Assembly (NCBI RefSeq): GCF_001543145.1
Contig: NZ_CP014160.1
Location: forward strand, 1,798,001-1,862,000
Direction: 5' to 3'
From: Aerococcus sanguinicola
GTDB lineage: Bacteria > Bacillota > Bacilli > Lactobacillales > Aerococcaceae
DNA length: 64,000 nucleotides
The position numbers and the translations under genes are program-made. Each line of letters starts with the position of its first letter. Positions within the stretch are counted from its first letter, which is position 1. Below are positions 17,301 through 23,259 of the stretch, piece after piece. The notes under the pieces were generated by a model. The model ran no database searches. It saw only the letters and a program-made list of their open reading frames with translations, and was not told the DNA's origin.

Positions 17301-18661
17301 TGTTCGGGGAAGACCATGTCTACCGAGCAGGAACCATTTCTACAGTGGCTGATAAAACGGCTTATGGTTATGTCCTAGGCTATAACCAGGACCATAACTT
17401 GAACCTTAGAAAAACGGAAAAAGATTTTCTCGCTAAGCACACAACAGGGGTCAAACGGACCACTGGCCAGCACCCAGGGGGGATTATTGTTATTCCGGAA
17501 TACATGGATGTCTATGACTTTACGCCCGTCCAATACCCCGCCGATGACTTGGATTCAGAATGGAAGACCACCCACTTTGACTTCCACTCCATCCACGATA
17601 ATGTCTTGAAACTCGATATTCTAGGCCACGATGATCCGACGGTTATTCGGAAGCTGCAAGACTTATCCGGCATCGATCCAAAAGATATTCCCATGGATGA
17701 TCCCGATGTCTACAAGCTCTTCAATGGGACGGAGATCCTAGGCGTTAGTTCAGAAGATATCTTTTCCAAGACGGGGACCCTTGGGATTCCAGAATTTGGG
17801 ACCTCCTTTACCCGGTCAATGCTAGAAGCTACCCATCCCTCGACCTTTGCGGAACTCCTCCAAATTTCGGGGCTCTCCCACGGGACGGATGTTTGGCTAG
17901 GCAATGCGGAAGTCCTGGTTAGAGAGAAGGGCATGCCCCTGTCTGAAGTGATTGGTTGTCGGGACGATATCATGGTCTACCTCATCCACCAGGGGGTTCC
18001 TGAACGTGATTCTTTCCAAATTATGGAAAAGGTGCGTAAGGGCAAGGGGCTCTCGGATGAACACAAGGCCATTATGAATGAGCACCAAGTCCCCCAATGG
18101 TATATGGCGTCCTGTGAAAAAATTAAATACATGTTCCCTAAAGCTCACGCAGCAGCCTATGTAATCAATGCTATTCGGGTGGCCTGGTTCAAGGTCCACC
18201 ATCCCATTTGGTATTACTGTGCTTATCTTAGTGTCCGGGCCAATGACTTTGACCTCGTCGCCATGGCGAATGGCCTCCAGTCAACGAAGACAGCTCTCAA
18301 GGCGATCTACAGTAAAGGTAATGATGCGACGGTCAAAGACCATGCCGTTCAAGTCGTCTTAGAAATTGTCAATGAGATGTGGGAGCGGGGCTTTAACTTT
18401 AAGATGGTCGATCTTTATAAGTCCGATGCCCAAGACTTTGTGATTGAAGGGGAAGATACCTTGATTGCCCCCTTTAGAGCCATTCCGGGCTTAGGACTCA
18501 ATGTGGCCAAACAAATTGTTAAGGCTCGCCAAGAGTCCGAATTCTTGTCCAAGGAAGACCTTAAGAAGCGGGGCAAGGTCTCCCAGTCGACGATCGACTT
18601 TATGTCTGAGCAGGGCATCTTAAACGGCTTGCCAGAAGAGAACCAACTTTCTCTCTTCTAG
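14363..18661 (+). CDS. polC: DNA polymerase III PolC-type alpha subunit
   Basis: PolC is the replicative polymerase of low-GC Gram-positives, with its own 3'-5' exonuclease. The 1432 residues match the usual size of about 1440. In order: an N-terminal domain, an OB fold near 225-315, the first half of the PHP domain (ELHLHSNMSALDA), an inserted DnaQ-like exonuclease starting at FDVETTGL (D422, E424), the second PHP half, a zinc module (CPNCFYSHF ... CPECGH), and the palm with PDIDLNFSGEY carrying the catalytic aspartates. It ends QLSLF, a likely beta-clamp binding motif. Translation starts at a TTG preceded by AAAGGAG. Confidence 0.97.
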   Translation: MEEKKEAFNRLLKQINFSDSDSNFQAGWIDHVTVHTKSRLYQFTLAFPKQLKASQFKALEEALQVGFQSIAKVDLGLTCSRAEDWEAEEVLAYWPVVVERSHISNGLAQQILTQQLPTWEGGKFILRVDNPQIQAFLETNYLEVIKQNYFVLGFSNVRFQVIVDEATANDRQAQFEARQEQLEREQQELAKQASVRQAKEAKDKPRPSKLAIGRSVPVDKLQPMRSYVEEQYGAAMEGVIFEKEVRELKTGRRILNLKFSDYTSAYLVTMFSRNDEDIAVFEGLEEGMWVRVQGEIRMDDRFARDYVLMGRDLEVITKEGRKDQAEEGKKRIELHLHSNMSALDATNTISDFAAQAKAWGQPAIAVTDHGNVQAFPEASQAAKANDIAMIYGLEANVVDDGVPIAYNPQDVDLSEAHYVVFDVETTGLSAAYNHIIELAAVKMYKGNVEETFEEFINPGYPLPAHIIELTKITDAMLQGARSEEDVMTDFQRFCEGCILVAHNASFDMGFINKAYSRHGMPEADNPVIDTLELSRFLHPNMKSHRLNTLAKHYNVSLEQHHRAIYDSETTGALAWIFIKEAAKNHDIHSHKDLNQDVGKGDAYKHGRPFHVTILTKNQAGLKDLFKLVSASNVDYFYRVPRLPRSLLADHRENLLLGSACSSGEFFEAVMQKGKEEAKRVAEFYDYLEIMPKGVYKPLIEDNLIHDEAELEEIMKTIIEIGEELDKPVVATGDVHYLNPQDKLYREILINSIKSNRTKFFPEAHFRTTDEMLHDFAFLGENKAYEIVVENTHKIFDQIEFVEPLKDKLYTPNIDGAEDEIRETSYREAHALYGEDLPEIIEKRLEKELTSIIGNGFSVVYLISEKLVKKSNSDGYIVGSRGSVGSSFVATMLGITEVNPLAPHYVCPNCFYSHFFTDGSVGSGFDLPDKDCPECGHALNKDGHDIPFETFLGFAGDKVPDIDLNFSGEYQPQAHNFTKVMFGEDHVYRAGTISTVADKTAYGYVLGYNQDHNLNLRKTEKDFLAKHTTGVKRTTGQHPGGIIVIPEYMDVYDFTPVQYPADDLDSEWKTTHFDFHSIHDNVLKLDILGHDDPTVIRKLQDLSGIDPKDIPMDDPDVYKLFNGTEILGVSSEDIFSKTGTLGIPEFGTSFTRSMLEATHPSTFAELLQISGLSHGTDVWLGNAEVLVREKGMPLSEVIGCRDDIMVYLIHQGVPERDSFQIMEKVRKGKGLSDEHKAIMNEHQVPQWYMASCEKIKYMFPKAHAAAYVINAIRVAWFKVHHPIWYYCAYLSVRANDFDLVAMANGLQSTKTALKAIYSKGNDATVKDHAVQVVLEIVNEMWERGFNFKMVDLYKSDAQDFVIEGEDTLIAPFRAIPGLGLNVAKQIVKARQESEFLSKEDLKKRGKVSQSTIDFMSEQGILNGLPEENQLSLF

Positions 18662-18702
18662 GGTTCAAGCAAGCGGATTGTTCGCTTTCTTTCAAATGAT
18701 TA

Positions 18703-18711
18703 TGCTATGAT
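18703..18711 (+). promoter_or_regulatory. Extended -10 promoter of the PII-DUF1538 operon
   Basis: TGC followed by TATGAT (18706-18711); no good -35 was seen. It is the only promoter-like signal between polC and the operon. Confidence 0.5.
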
Positions 18712-18790
18712 AGTAACGTAGGTCTATTAATAAATGAAAAAGCCAATTATTGGGCTAGAATAAGAAACGTTAAGGAAAGGAGTTGTGACA

Positions 18791-19105
18791 GTGAATACAG
18801 GAAAAGAAATGCTTATGGTCATTGTAGACCGTGATACCAGTGATGAAGTGATCGAGGTAGCCCGGCAAGCCGGCGCCCAGGGAGCGACTGTGCTTCATGG
18901 CCGCGGCACGGGGCATGAGGACAAGCTATCGGCCTTCCATATCCATGTCGAACCACAAAAAGAATTGGTTATGATGGCAGTCGAAGCTGACCAAGTAGAT
19001 AGTATCAGCCAAGCCATAGCTGAAGCCTTGGACTTTAACCAACCAGGGACTGGGATCCTTTTTAGCCTACCGATCAATGAAACGACTGGATTATATGAAG
19101 GATAA
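18791..19105 (+). CDS. PII-like nitrogen regulatory family protein
   Basis: This 104-residue protein has the ferredoxin-like PII fold pattern: LMVIVDRDTSDEVIEVARQAG, the T-loop-side signature GATVLHGRGTG, KELVMMAVEADQVDSI, and the C-terminal PGTGILFSLPI. It lacks the tyrosine-bearing T-loop of classical GlnB, so uridylylation is unlikely. PII trimers bind nucleotides and gate partner proteins, often transporters. It starts an operon with a DUF1538 membrane protein (19144) and a second PII-like gene (20636). GTG at 18791 is preferred, about 8 bases after AAAGGAG; GTG at 18785 is possible. Ligand and partner are inferred only from context. Confidence 0.85.
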   Translation: MNTGKEMLMVIVDRDTSDEVIEVARQAGAQGATVLHGRGTGHEDKLSAFHIHVEPQKELVMMAVEADQVDSISQAIAEALDFNQPGTGILFSLPINETTGLYEG

Positions 19106-19143
19106 ATTTGAAAGAAAAAACATGAGAGAAAAAGGAGGACTTT

Positions 19144-20613
19144 ATGGATGTTTTAATCGATAAGTTCAAAGAGGTAGCTTTTTCTGTCATTCCGCTAGTT
19201 GTTATTGTTTTATTAATATCAATGTTTGCTGTTAACGTACCCTCTACCATGATGATGAGTTTCGTCATTGGGGCAGTATTGATTTTAGTGGGATTGACCA
19301 TCTTCCTCTTTGGCATTGAAATCGGGATGACGCCGATTGGGAACCATCTGGGGGACCATGTGGCAGGAAATCCCTCGCGAATTGCCATTGCTGTTTTGAG
19401 TTTTATTATTGGTTTTGCGGTAACGATAGCGGAACCAGACTTACTAATTCTCGGCCAGCAAATTGAAAATGCAACTTCGGGTGTCTTGCCCGGTACAGTG
19501 ACTGTAGTGGCTGTCTCTGTCGGAGTTGGTGTTATGATTGCCTTTGGGGTCTTCAGATTGTTGAAGAACTTTCCCTTGAAATATTTCTTCGCCATTGTTT
19601 ATGCTTTGATTCTTATCTTGGCTATTTTTTCCGATAATTCGGCGATTGCTATGGGCTTTGATGCCTCAGGTGCAACAACAGGAGCTTTAACGACGCCCTT
19701 TATTTTGGCCTTATCGGGAGCTCTAGCAGCTAAAGCTGGGGGCAAACAAGCAGAAGAAAACTCCTTCGGTCTAGTTGGGGCGATGTCAACTGGCCCTATT
19801 CTGGCGGTGCTTTTCTTAATCCTCTTTTCCCAAACGGACTTGCAGGCAGCTGAATCAACGGTGGAATATTCGAACAGTGTAATCGGCCCCATCCTTGCTG
19901 CAATCTGGCCGACTTTGAAAGAGTCCTTGATTGCCTTGGTTCCAATTGTTTTATTCTTTATCTTCATGAATTGGCGCTACTTTAAGTTGAAGGGCCAAGA
20001 ACTCGGCGATATCTTTAAAGGGATTATCTATACAGTTGTTGGTTTGACTATTTTCTTAGTTGGCGTTAACCAAGGTTTTATGGATATGGGCCACTTCTTA
20101 GGCCAAGCCATTGCCGAAATGGGTGATTGGTGGCTGATTATTGCTGGCTTTACCCTAGGTATGGTGGTTGTTCTAGCTGAACCTGCTGTCCACGTTCTGG
20201 GTGAGCAGGTGGAAGACATCACTGGGGGCCATATCCACAACAAGGTTCTGATGGGGGCCTTGTCTATCGGGGTTGCCCTAGCTGTAGGACTTTCTATGGT
20301 GAGAATTTTAAATAGTAATTTAGCCATCTGGCACTTCTTATTGCCAGGCTTTGGGCTAGCTATCCTCTTATCCTTTATGGTACCGAATCTCTTTACCGGG
20401 ATTGCCTTTGATGCGGGTGGGGTAGCTTCGGGCCCGATGACCGCTACCTTTATCTTGGCCTTTGCCCAGGGTGCAGCGGACTTCTTACCCAATGCCGATG
20501 CCCTGGATGCTTTCGGCGTCATAGCTTTTGTTGCTATGGTACCCGTGGTTATGGTAGAATTACTCGGCTTAGTCTTTAAGATTCAAACCAAGAAGACAGG
20601 AATTGAAGAATAG
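19144..20613 (+). CDS. DUF1538 family membrane protein (two internal repeats)
   Basis: This 489-residue integral membrane protein of unknown function has about a dozen hydrophobic segments. It is built from two homologous halves. GLTIFLFGIEIG and AEPDLLILGQQIENATSG in the first match GLTIFLVGVNQG and AEPAVHVLGEQVEDITGG in the second. Likewise FDASGATTGALTTPFILA matches FDAGGVASGPMTATFILA. Such duplication, with glycine-rich polar stretches inside membrane regions, resembles secondary transporters with re-entrant loops. PII-like genes on both sides suggest PII-gated transport. AAAGGAGG precedes the ATG. The substrate is not predictable from sequence. Confidence 0.86.
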   Translation: MDVLIDKFKEVAFSVIPLVVIVLLISMFAVNVPSTMMMSFVIGAVLILVGLTIFLFGIEIGMTPIGNHLGDHVAGNPSRIAIAVLSFIIGFAVTIAEPDLLILGQQIENATSGVLPGTVTVVAVSVGVGVMIAFGVFRLLKNFPLKYFFAIVYALILILAIFSDNSAIAMGFDASGATTGALTTPFILALSGALAAKAGGKQAEENSFGLVGAMSTGPILAVLFLILFSQTDLQAAESTVEYSNSVIGPILAAIWPTLKESLIALVPIVLFFIFMNWRYFKLKGQELGDIFKGIIYTVVGLTIFLVGVNQGFMDMGHFLGQAIAEMGDWWLIIAGFTLGMVVVLAEPAVHVLGEQVEDITGGHIHNKVLMGALSIGVALAVGLSMVRILNSNLAIWHFLLPGFGLAILLSFMVPNLFTGIAFDAGGVASGPMTATFILAFAQGAADFLPNADALDAFGVIAFVAMVPVVMVELLGLVFKIQTKKTGIEE

Positions 20614-20635
20614 AAAGGGGTTGTCAACTAGCCTA

Positions 20636-21310
20636 ATGGAAACCGTATTATTCTTAGCAGTCGTCAAGGCTGGGACCGCGAGCCAATTGATTAAAGCGGC
20701 TAAAGCAGTTGGGGCGCCAGGAGGCACAGTGATTCGTGCGGAAGGTACAATCAGCAGTCGTCTGGCCCATGCCCTCGGCTTTCACGATTCCAAACGTGAA
20801 GTCGTTTTGATTGCAGTGGATAAGTCCCTAGAAGGACGCCTCCACCAAGAATTGAATGACAAATTGAAGCTCGATCGCAAAGGTAAGGGGGTCCTCTTCT
20901 CCTTTGATATTTCTAGCTTCCAGGGCAGTAAGCAGATTAACAGCCCATTTGATGAAAGCCAGGTAGAAGCTTCCGATAGCCAGCTGATGACGGTTATTGT
21001 TGACCGGCAGATGGGCGACCAAGTGGTAGAAGTTTCCCGTGAAGCTGGTGCCCGAGGTGCAACGATCCTGCACGGGCGTGGAACAGGTGTGCATGAGACG
21101 GGCAAGGTCTTTAACTTCCCGATTGAACTTGAAAAAGAGATCGTGGTTATGGTGATCCCAAGCGCTCTCGTTCAAGAAATTTCAGATAAAATTATTACTG
21201 AAACAGACTTATGCAAACCAGGGCGCGGGATTTTGTTCACTGTGCCCGTGAATTCCAAACGTGGACTCGTTCCACCCAAGCCAGCAGACGAAGTGTCAAG
21301 TGAGCTTTAG
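20636..21310 (+). CDS. Tandem PII-like regulatory protein
   Basis: About 224 residues contain two PII-like domains in series. The first (FLAVVKAGTASQLIKAAKA, GGTVIRAEGTISS, GKGVLFSFDI) is divergent. The second (MTVIVDRQMGDQVVEVSREAG, GATILHGRGTG, GRGILFTVPV) is very close to the PII-like protein at 18791. The start is uncertain: ATG at 20636 is a little far from AAAGGGG (20614-20620), and TTG at 20621 is too close. It directly follows the DUF1538 gene. A fused pseudo-dimer could form mixed trimers with the single-domain protein; that is inference. Confidence 0.83.
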   Translation: METVLFLAVVKAGTASQLIKAAKAVGAPGGTVIRAEGTISSRLAHALGFHDSKREVVLIAVDKSLEGRLHQELNDKLKLDRKGKGVLFSFDISSFQGSKQINSPFDESQVEASDSQLMTVIVDRQMGDQVVEVSREAGARGATILHGRGTGVHETGKVFNFPIELEKEIVVMVIPSALVQEISDKIITETDLCKPGRGILFTVPVNSKRGLVPPKPADEVSSEL

Positions 21311-21320
21311 TCTAAAAACA

Positions 21321-21349
21321 TTGCTATTTGGCGCGCATCATGTTAAACT
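21321..21349 (+). promoter_or_regulatory. Promoter of the rimP-nusA operon
   Basis: TTGCTA (21321-21326), a 17-base spacer and TAAACT (21344-21349) preceded by TGT. Confidence 0.7.
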
Positions 21350-21375
21350 ATAAATGTAATTAAGGGACCAGTGAG

Positions 21376-21402
21376 GAGTGAGCGGGAACGCTCACTCTTT
21401 TT
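21376..21402 (+). terminator. Intrinsic terminator in the rimP-nusA leader
   Basis: A perfect 9-bp stem, GAGTGAGCG (21376-21384) with CGCTCACTC (21389-21397), has a GGAA loop and is followed by TTTTT. It lies between the operon promoter and rimP, so besides ending the PII operon it can act as an attenuator. Confidence 0.9.
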
Positions 21403-21427
21403 CATGAAATAGAAAGTGGGGGATTGT

Positions 21428-21901
21428 GTGGCAAGAGTCATTGATGAAGTCAGAACGTTAATCGAGCCGAAGTTAGAGGAACTCGCTTATGACTTGTTCG
21501 ACATGGAATATACAAAAGAAGGAAAGAATTGGTATCTGCGTATCTATATCGATAAGCTTGGAGGGGTCACCATTGAAGACTGTGTGACTGTTTCAGAAGT
21601 TTTATCAGAAATTTTAGACCAAGCAGATCCTGATCCAATCCCTGGCGCTTATTATCTGGAAGTTTCATCGCCCGGTGCCGAGCGTCCACTGAAGAATGAG
21701 GCGGATATCCAAGCTTCCATTGGCAAATGGGTCCACCTCAAGCTCTATCAAGCCTTTGAAGGGGCTAAGGAATGGGAAGGACGCCTCCTCCAAGCAGATG
21801 AAGAAGCTTTTACCATAGAAGTTAAAGATAAGACGCGGCGGATTGAAAAGACGATTCCGCGTCAGCTTGTGGCCTTAATTCGTTTGGCCATTGAATTTTA
21901 A
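21428..21901 (+). CDS. rimP: Ribosome maturation factor RimP
   Basis: RimP assists maturation of the 30S subunit. With GTG at 21428 the protein has 157 residues, the family norm, starting MARVIDEVRTLIEPKLEELAYDL. Typical blocks are LRIYIDKLGGVTIEDCVTVS and YYLEVSSPGAERPL. AGTGGGGG lies 6-7 bases before this GTG, favouring it over an in-frame GTG 12 bases upstream. nusA follows after 20 bases. The order rimP-nusA-ylxR-ylxQ-infB-rbfA is the standard Firmicute operon. Confidence 0.96.
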   Translation: MARVIDEVRTLIEPKLEELAYDLFDMEYTKEGKNWYLRIYIDKLGGVTIEDCVTVSEVLSEILDQADPDPIPGAYYLEVSSPGAERPLKNEADIQASIGKWVHLKLYQAFEGAKEWEGRLLQADEEAFTIEVKDKTRRIEKTIPRQLVALIRLAIEF

Positions 21902-21921
21902 TTGAGTTAAAGGGGATTAGA

Positions 21922-23259
21922 ATGGGAAAAGAATTAATTCAAGCCTTTGAAACATTGGAAAACGAAAAAGGAATTTCAAAGGAAGTTATTATTGAAGCCT
22001 TGGAAGCAGCCCTTGTTTCTGCTTACAAGCGTAATTACAAACAAGCACAGAACGTGGAAGTCCACTTCGATGAGAAGAAGGGTGAAATCAAGGTCTATGC
22101 GGTTAAAGAAGTCGTCGACCTCGTGATGGACTCAACCCTGGAAGTTTCCTTGGAAGAGGCCCACGAACGGAATACCGCTTATGAGGTGGGGGATAAGATT
22201 CGCTTCGAGGTCACCCCTAAAGACTTCGGCCGGATTGCTGCCCAAACTGCTAAACAAGTGGTTACCCAACGGATCCGTGAGGCGGAACGCAATATCATCT
22301 ATAATGAATTTATCGATTATGAAGATGATCTATTGACAGGGACTGTTGAGCGTCAAGACCGTCGCTATGTTTATATTAATCTAGGGAAGATCGAAGCGGC
22401 CTTAACACCAGAAGGTCAAATTCCAGGTGAACACTTTGAATCCCACGATCGTGTCCAAGTTTATGTGGAAAGGGTCGAAAATACGACTAAGGGCCCTCAA
22501 ATTTATGTCAGTCGCAGCCATCCTAATATGTTGAAGCGACTTTTTGAACAAGAAGTACCGGAGATTTATGATGGGACGGTTGAAATCAAGGCCATTGCCC
22601 GTGAAGCTGGAGACCGGTCCAAGATGGCTGTTTACTCTCATGACCCTAATGTGGACGCAGTCGGAACCTGCGTTGGCCCACGGGGTTCGCGTGTACAGAC
22701 CATTGTGGATGAACTTCACGGTGAGAATATGGACATTGTGGAATGGACAGAAGATCCAGCCCAATTGATCAAGAATGCCCTGAATCCAGCAGAGGTTCTA
22801 GAAGTTCACTTCGTTCCTAATGAACGCTCTTGTGTGGTCGTTGTGCCTAACCACCACCTTTCCCTAGCGATTGGGAAACGGGGGCAAAATGCCCGCTTGG
22901 CGGCTAAACTGACCAACTATAAGATTGATATTAAGTCAGAAGAAGAATTCGATGCCTTCCAAGCTTCAGAAGAGTATGAAGCGCTCTTCCATCCCGAGAT
23001 GGTTGAGGAAGAAGTGCTGGCTGAGGAAGGCACTGCGCCTGCTGAACCAGCAGAAGATGATGAGCTTTTAGCGGTTGCGGATGAAGTGGAAGCTATTGAA
23101 GAAGAAGTAGCTGCTGAGGACCTAGATGACCAAGGTCTCCGTGCTGACGATATCGAAGAAGGCAATCTTGGCCCTGACCAGATGGAAGATGCGGTAGCCG
23201 ATATCGAAAATGATAGCGAGACCTCTTATGACGACTTACAAGAGGACTTTGAAATTTAG
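21922..23259 (+). CDS. nusA: Transcription termination/antitermination factor NusA
   Basis: NusA binds RNA polymerase and affects pausing and intrinsic termination. In order: the polymerase-binding N-terminal domain (1-~125), the S1 domain ([22 protein letters not shown]), and two KH domains containing DPVGTCVGxxGSRVQ-like ([19 protein letters not shown]) and [12 protein letters not shown]. The core ends near residue 355. An acidic, low-complexity tail of about 85 residues rich in E, D and A follows, making the protein (445) longer than the roughly 370 residues common in Bacilli. It may be auto-regulated through the leader terminator at 21376. Confidence 0.97.

Follow-up and report, generated by a model that had tools for sequence, protein, structure and literature searches.

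A DUF1538 membrane protein and its PII-like neighbors in Aerococcus sanguinicola: a conserved partnership and a candidate PII-gated ion exchanger

Does a membrane protein of the family DUF1538 (PF07556) whose gene lies between two genes for PII-like proteins work together with them, and if so, as what? The question is raised by three genes in a 64,000-nucleotide stretch of the Aerococcus sanguinicola chromosome (hereafter, the window: positions 1798001-1862000 of contig NZ_CP014160.1, a single-contig genome of 2.03 Mb, assembly GCF_001543145.1). An earlier note, made from the letters of this DNA, placed here a single-domain PII-like gene, a DUF1538 gene, and a tandem PII-like gene, adjacent and co-directional, and proposed a PII-gated transporter. 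The three-gene operon is real: all three genes are present on the plus strand, with matches to their Pfam families. Judging from gene neighborhood, co-occurrence, and fusion, we consider it close to certain that PII-like and DUF1538 proteins are partners, and the features on which this discussion rests are as follows.

18785..19105, plus strand: single-domain PII-like gene (C-type), 106 amino acids from GTG 18785; Pfam P-II, 42.2 bits (cut-off 25)
18794-19099, plus strand: match of the single PII-like domain to profile A2, E 2.3e-37
19144..20613, plus strand: DUF1538 membrane protein gene, 489 amino acids; PF07556, 409.8 bits (cut-off 22.6), in two stretches
19198..19821, plus strand: DUF1538 half 1 (UmpA-like position), PF07556 match; invariant Glu97 and Asp173
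19945..20574, plus strand: DUF1538 half 2 (UmpB-like position), PF07556 match; invariant Glu346 and Asp423
20603..21310, plus strand: tandem PII-like gene, 235 amino acids from TTG 20603; Pfam P-II, 45.5 bits (cut-off 25)
20639..20935, plus strand: first tandem PII domain (N-type), profile A2 E 3.6e-29; in the N group of the tree, with a Shimodaira-Hasegawa-like approximate likelihood ratio test (SH-aLRT) support of 97
20966..21268, plus strand: second tandem PII domain (C-type), profile A2 E 1.2e-35
21376..21403, plus strand: terminator-like hairpin and T run 3' of the operon, from a terminator scan of the region

The conserved co-occurrence of the two families, on which the earlier idea depends, was looked for across genomes and found. 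DUF1538 is present in 101 of 299 Bacillota genomes drawn, the window's own included. Leaving that one aside, the PII-like profile A2 finds a match at E<=1e-20 in 99 of 100; the DUF1538 match of the exception (G155) is itself weak, with a best E of 9.4e-23. No Bacillota genome without DUF1538 has a PII-like match at this threshold, the best reaching 2.8e-14 (G148), while at the looser E<=1e-3 such a match appears in 27 of them. The Fisher test of this association was computed with a total of 299, one more than it should be with the window's own genome set aside, which makes no difference at the p-values obtained. Among 198 Spirochaetota genomes, DUF1538 exceeds the cut-off in 40 (a 41st match, of 37 positions, lies below it), and all 40 have a PII-like match at E<=1e-3, some of them weak; the best E-values of spirochaetes with three-domain PII proteins are only about 1e-5 to 1e-16. 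Two Spirochaetota genomes have a PII-like match and no DUF1538, namely G489 (1.1e-22), in which the match is a tandem PII gene (L155), and G494 (1.4e-4). Besides Bacillota and Spirochaetota, the partnership was seen in one Caldisericia assembly (L090) and on alphaproteobacterial plasmids. Three plasmid records carry DUF1538, and in both of those examined a pair of DUF1538 genes precedes a "P-II family nitrogen regulator," in the order umpA-umpB-PII.

Adjacency is as regular as co-occurrence. The named DUF1538 loci are the best 80 of at least 586 and hence resemble the query; in 79 of them, a PII domain is fused to DUF1538 or lies no more than 250 bp away on the same strand, and the remaining locus (L061) has no PII domain beside it or elsewhere in its genome. 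A second set holds 30 best-scoring loci of relatives, from a search that found DUF1538 in 51 of 100 genomes, and 27 of these have an adjacent PII gene. The three exceptions (L005, L006, and L009) belong to one genus, whose other DUF1538 copy adjoins a tandem PII gene. In the spirochaete loci L116-L135, reading gave an adjacent PII in 20 of 20 and a script in 19 of 20; at L120 and L154, both in genome G589, the tandem PII lies in an overlapping longer frame that the script missed. The reader should keep in mind that L136-L155 were picked for their PII matches, that L002 repeats L001 and was dropped from the counts, and that contig ends cut L039, L103, L104, L047, and L053.

The PII domain is fused to the C-terminus of DUF1538 in 17 of the 80 named loci, which we take as further evidence of direct coupling. 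The 70 flanking open reading frames (ORFs) scanned, hand-chosen from 200 picked around 51 loci, show no further Pfam family in more than three members, and three loci of the fused type (L048, L050, and L052) have a histidine-biosynthesis gene upstream.

Some loci depart from the common arrangement. Two tandem PII genes lie beside or near one DUF1538 gene at L057 (5001-8001) and L089 (1750-5381). At L021 and L028, from another family of the order, two half-size DUF1538 genes are followed by one single PII gene, much like umpA-umpB-PII. In genomes G058 and G054, both from relatives, in-frame stops interrupt the DUF1538 matches, which look like copies in decay.

If the two families are partners, what is the membrane protein? 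Its two halves, scoring 200 and 222 bits against PF07556, align with each other (hhalign E 5.2e-36, 26% identity, 232 columns) and can be regarded as homologous, so the repeat described in the earlier note stands. The 12-helix type given with it does not stand as well, as 14 helices fit better. With helix limits set from the hydropathy profile and Lys+Arg counted over the 80 DUF1538 sequences, the 14-helix model places a mean of 17.6 of these residues inside versus 3.1 outside, with an inside excess in 80/80. The 12-helix model, in which both FDxxG segments are re-entrant, gives 11.2 versus 9.5 (52/80). Two 13-helix models fall in between: with the second FDxxG segment re-entrant, the means are 14.1 and 6.6 (80/80), and with the first re-entrant and the N-terminus outside, 13.1 and 7.6 (73/80). 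The former of these scores fairly well but worse than 14 helices and is a less likely alternative; it would put the C-terminus outside, in conflict with the fused PII domains. Seven helices per half would make the halves inverted and both termini cytoplasmic, and a cytoplasmic C-terminus fits the fusion of PII domains there. Seven helices are likewise predicted for each half-size protein in the paper on UmpA and UmpB (PMC5484666).

The 80 aligned proteins share Glu97, Asp173, Glu346, and Asp423 without exception, as one might expect of residues predicted to bind a cation or proton. By simple patterns, both motif pairs are kept in 102 of a wider set of 150 full-length DUF1538 proteins, and the largest departure is seen in the spirochaete group with three PII domains. 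Searches with DUF1538 profiles matched no solved structure at E<=1 or at E<=10, and a Pfam scan of the 80 proteins found no other family in more than four members, all of those matches being weak.

The best clue to function comes from Halomonas zhaodongensis, whose UmpA and UmpB, when co-expressed, act as a Na+(Li+,K+)/H+ antiporter and form a heterodimer; the antiport was obtained in Escherichia coli with umpA and umpB alone expressed (PMC5484666). The earlier note called the membrane protein one of unknown function, which holds only in part: one DUF1538 pair has a measured activity, and the substrate in the window can be extrapolated from it. By analogy with UmpAB, the window protein is most likely a secondary transporter, probably exchanging Na+ and/or K+ for protons, and in that sense its substrate is less of a blank than it had seemed. 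DUF1538 also appears in a table of pH-adaptation genes in a machine-learning paper (PMC13255231).

Riboswitches could have offered a second clue. None was found at E<=1 in window positions 18000-22000, nor, at gathering scores, directly before DUF1538 in the 71 of 80 named loci scanned (that is, all except L047, L049-L053, L059, L074, and L101). RNA matches elsewhere in the loci comprise four T-boxes, a selenocysteine insertion sequence (SECIS), a transfer-messenger RNA (tmRNA), a transfer RNA (tRNA), a cyclic di-GMP (c-di-GMP) riboswitch, a group II intron, and a fluoride riboswitch. The last of these (L111, 7705-7774) lies downstream of a DUF1538-PII operon and probably belongs to the next gene.

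The PII-like proteins can be placed with some care. In a search of the genome, the first tandem domain was not matched on its own by Pfam P-II (PF00543). Against solved structures, the PII profile finds a classical PII first (9p1x_H, 9.6e-7), with SbtB chains at E 0.76-0.86, and the match of the single protein to DUF2179 is below cut-off (15.2 of 22.8 bits). By pattern matching, we found neither the classical PII uridylylation motif (0/335 domains) nor the classical PII C-terminal signature (0/335). The only P-II matches in the window's genome lie within the operon; AmtB (PF00909) is absent from it and present in 14/14 control genomes, 13 of which also have P-II. Ordinary nitrogen signaling was therefore rejected as the role of these genes, there being no AmtB and no other P-II in the genome. 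There is no match to PstA (PF06153) either in the genome or among the Pfam matches of the three proteins, although the genome encodes one diadenylate cyclase.

The second tandem domain shares 44% identity with the single protein and the first tandem domain 27%. The former is clearly related to the single protein, then, but "very similar," as the earlier note had it, is too strong. Its suggestion of a duplication inside the operon probably needs revision: the single domain is placed among other Aerococcaceae domains, both singles and second domains of tandems, and not beside the second domain of its own tandem, so the duplication that gave rise to the single gene looks older than the window's operon in what is a weakly resolved tree. 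That tree was built from 88 chosen domains and 105 columns, leaves 41 of 85 inner branches open, and has long branches meeting among the triples. It contains an N group (SH-aLRT 97), in which the first domain of L108 joins 27 N domains, and a C group (support 85) made up of the majority of second tandem domains together with the singles of Aerococcaceae and 10/10 of the fused domains sampled; three C domains and two singles lie outside the latter.

Crude patterns separate these classes further. The T-loop Arg is found in 113/123 C, 17/17 fused, 8/10 single, and 32/126 N domains, and the B-loop GxGIxF in 88/123 C, 0/17 fused, and 20/126 N domains. Such unequal motif loss suggests that the classes have different roles in a mixed assembly.

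It is here that the count of PII domains becomes of interest. In the window's genome, the PII-like matches are confined to the single gene and the tandem gene, and the same set of exactly one of each, partly unlinked, is found in five more genomes of Aerococcaceae (picked because of their odd adjacency or their kinship, not at random). A fused domain accompanies a tandem in 15 named loci, and two further fused loci end at a contig edge. One protein carries three PII domains in the clostridial L108 and in 17 spirochaete loci that had been selected by PII match. The spirochaete examples (L136-L152, Spirochaetota) are frames of ~370-470 codons, with three mutually diverged PII-like domains, adjoining a long DUF1538 protein; adjacency in this group was checked at these 17 loci. 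At least three origins of the three-domain sets would agree with the tree, which falls short of proof.

We put at about an even chance a mechanism in which a DUF1538 secondary antiporter is gated from the cytoplasm by its own three-domain PII regulator. The UmpAB-type transporter would exchange Na+ and/or K+ for protons, as extrapolated from Halomonas. Three PII-like domains, one from the single protein and two from the tandem, would assemble into one heterotrimeric ring at the transporter's cytoplasmic face. A small effector, for which our guess is an adenine nucleotide and possibly cyclic di-AMP (c-di-AMP), would bind one or more of the subunit clefts, and its binding would dock or release the ring, closing or opening ion exchange in a direction that we can only infer. 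Both the docking of a three-domain ring on that face and its response to adenine nucleotides are borrowed from general PII biology. Because umpA and umpB alone are active in E. coli, a role as brake or modulator is more likely for the PII proteins than that of an essential subunit.

More tentatively, and at somewhat less than even confidence, we suggest that an asymmetric ring of three unlike PII domains has been reached more than once (single plus tandem in Aerococcaceae, fused plus tandem in clostridia and some spirochaetes, and a three-domain chain in spirochaetes), its clefts having diverged into sensing and non-sensing sites. Taken together, the evidence partly supports the earlier interpretation of a PII-gated transporter: genetic coupling through co-occurrence, adjacency, and C-terminal fusion speaks for it, and the classical GlnK T-loop mechanism cannot simply be transferred, given the missing uridylylation motif and the lack of AmtB.

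Several observations weigh against an antiporter gated by a three-domain ring. UmpAB antiport in E. coli took place without PII genes, and the window protein is well below the NCBIfam equivalog cut-offs for UmpA (NF041627, 171.3 of 490 bits) and UmpB (NF041628, 138.3 of 500). Two genomes, those of L061 and G155, have DUF1538 without any PII-like match. The 335 PII-like domains lack a classical ligand-binding signature by the patterns used. In 57 of the 80 named loci, the tandem is the only PII beside DUF1538, and systems with a single PII exist as well, including those on alphaproteobacterial plasmids, so the family does not require three domains; tandem-only systems might form rings from three chains.

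The alternative that survives best concerns the ring, and we rate it as plausible, if again short of an even chance: the single protein would form a homotrimer and the tandems a trimer of their own, answering to different signals, with no mixed ring. The tandem-only loci favor such separate assemblies, as do lone single PII genes beside split or full DUF1538 genes and the unlinked single and tandem genes of some Aerococcaceae. Yet the set of three is kept in six Aerococcaceae genomes even where it is unlinked, it recurs as fused plus tandem and as three-domain chains, and the fused domains all keep the T-loop Arg while none has the B-loop motif, as if a partner completed them.

A different cargo is, in our view, unlikely. 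A PII-gated DUF1538 protein might carry bicarbonate, ammonium, or an organic ion, for example, the antiport of UmpAB being specific to that pair or a side activity. One DUF1538 pair alone has been characterized, the window protein misses the UmpA and UmpB cut-offs, and no cation riboswitch precedes DUF1538 in the 71 loci scanned; against this stand the four invariant acidic residues and the listing of DUF1538 among pH-adaptation genes (PMC13255231).

More doubtful still is the view that the PII-like proteins are constitutive cytoplasmic subunits, serving assembly or stability and binding no regulatory ligand. The lack of classical signatures and the scarcity of the T-loop Arg in N-type domains would agree with a structural subunit, but C-type domains mostly retain both the T-loop Arg and the B-loop motif, suggesting a kept binding cleft, and UmpAB was active in E. 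coli without a PII of its own (PMC5484666). That the PII proteins act elsewhere, in nitrogen metabolism or transcription, and are mere neighbors of DUF1538 is highly improbable: a few genomes have a PII gene of the same family unlinked to DUF1538, and in G489 a tandem occurs with no DUF1538 detected, but this is set against near-perfect co-occurrence in two phyla, adjacency across varied gene contexts, fusion into single polypeptides, and a window genome without AmtB.

How does an antiporter with a dedicated three-domain PII regulator compare with known systems? The classical case of PII gating of a channel is GlnK-AmtB, which also has a PII gene, of the Pfam P-II family, beside a membrane transporter gene; the window differs in its short T-loop, in having no uridylylation motif and no AmtB, and in a regulator made of a single and a tandem protein. 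SbtB is a PII-like regulator of the cyanobacterial bicarbonate transporter SbtA and is likewise a dedicated PII-like protein beside a secondary transporter, but the transporter family is another one, SbtB matches the PII profile with E 0.76 at best, and we know of no tandem or fused PII in SbtB-SbtA systems. The cyclic di-AMP receptors PstA/DarA (PF06153) are tied to potassium physiology via c-di-AMP and share a PII-like fold in Bacillota; they form another Pfam family, with no match in the window's genome.

UmpAB of H. zhaodongensis belongs to the same Pfam family and has two homologous seven-helix halves, encoded there by separate genes, whereas the window has one protein and PII genes (PMC5484666). 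YitT/DUF2179 proteins such as BB0017 resemble the fused DUF1538 proteins in carrying a PII-like domain C-terminal to a membrane domain, which is, however, of another family with four predicted helices (PMC6516651). The main text of the UmpAB paper does not mention PII (PMC5484666), and further DUF1538 papers mention the family once each, citing the UmpAB work, with no link to PII in the passages seen; the one "PII" string among them is part of a motif. Literature searches on UmpA/UmpB, PII-like proteins, antiporters, gene neighborhood, and tandem or fused PII, covering mostly non-subscription papers, found no published account of DUF1538-PII coupling. What we consider new, as not found in print in these searches, is that coupling to PII is conserved in the DUF1538 family, which recurrently uses sets of three unlike PII domains.

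Some details of the operon deserve attention from anyone annotating it. The gap between the single gene and the DUF1538 gene is 38 bp, and the DUF1538 and tandem genes overlap by 11 nt if the latter starts at TTG 20603. The starts of both PII-like genes are provisional, here as in the list. GTG 18791 is a likelier start of the single gene than GTG 18785 because of a Shine-Dalgarno sequence, AAAGGAG, at 18776-18782 with a spacing of 8. For the tandem gene, the sole ATG in the vicinity, at 20636, is the alternative to TTG 20603 and would give 224 amino acids; it is the likely start. Five terminator-like sites in the region compare with 3.0 (sd 1.9) in shuffles, so the hairpin is weak evidence by itself. 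The operon is flanked on one side by what we take to be a polC-like gene and on the other by a presumed rimP-nusA-ylxR-infB cluster. In a list that omits records near the window, the named proteins closest to the DUF1538 protein come from Aerococcus species and Facklamia lactis.

PII control is established for ammonium and bicarbonate transport. If the mechanism proposed here is true, a dedicated partner family carries such control over to the exchange of monovalent cations for protons, and this coupling may let cells tune their ion balance. DUF1538 gains a likely regulator, and genes labeled "P-II family nitrogen regulator" beside DUF1538 gain a better working hypothesis than nitrogen control. 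If the more tentative idea of an asymmetric ring also holds, a normally symmetric trimeric switch would have turned into a gate that is asymmetric, takes several inputs, and matches the inverted repeat of its transporter. The natural three-domain PII proteins would allow one to dissect a trimeric switch one binding cleft at a time.

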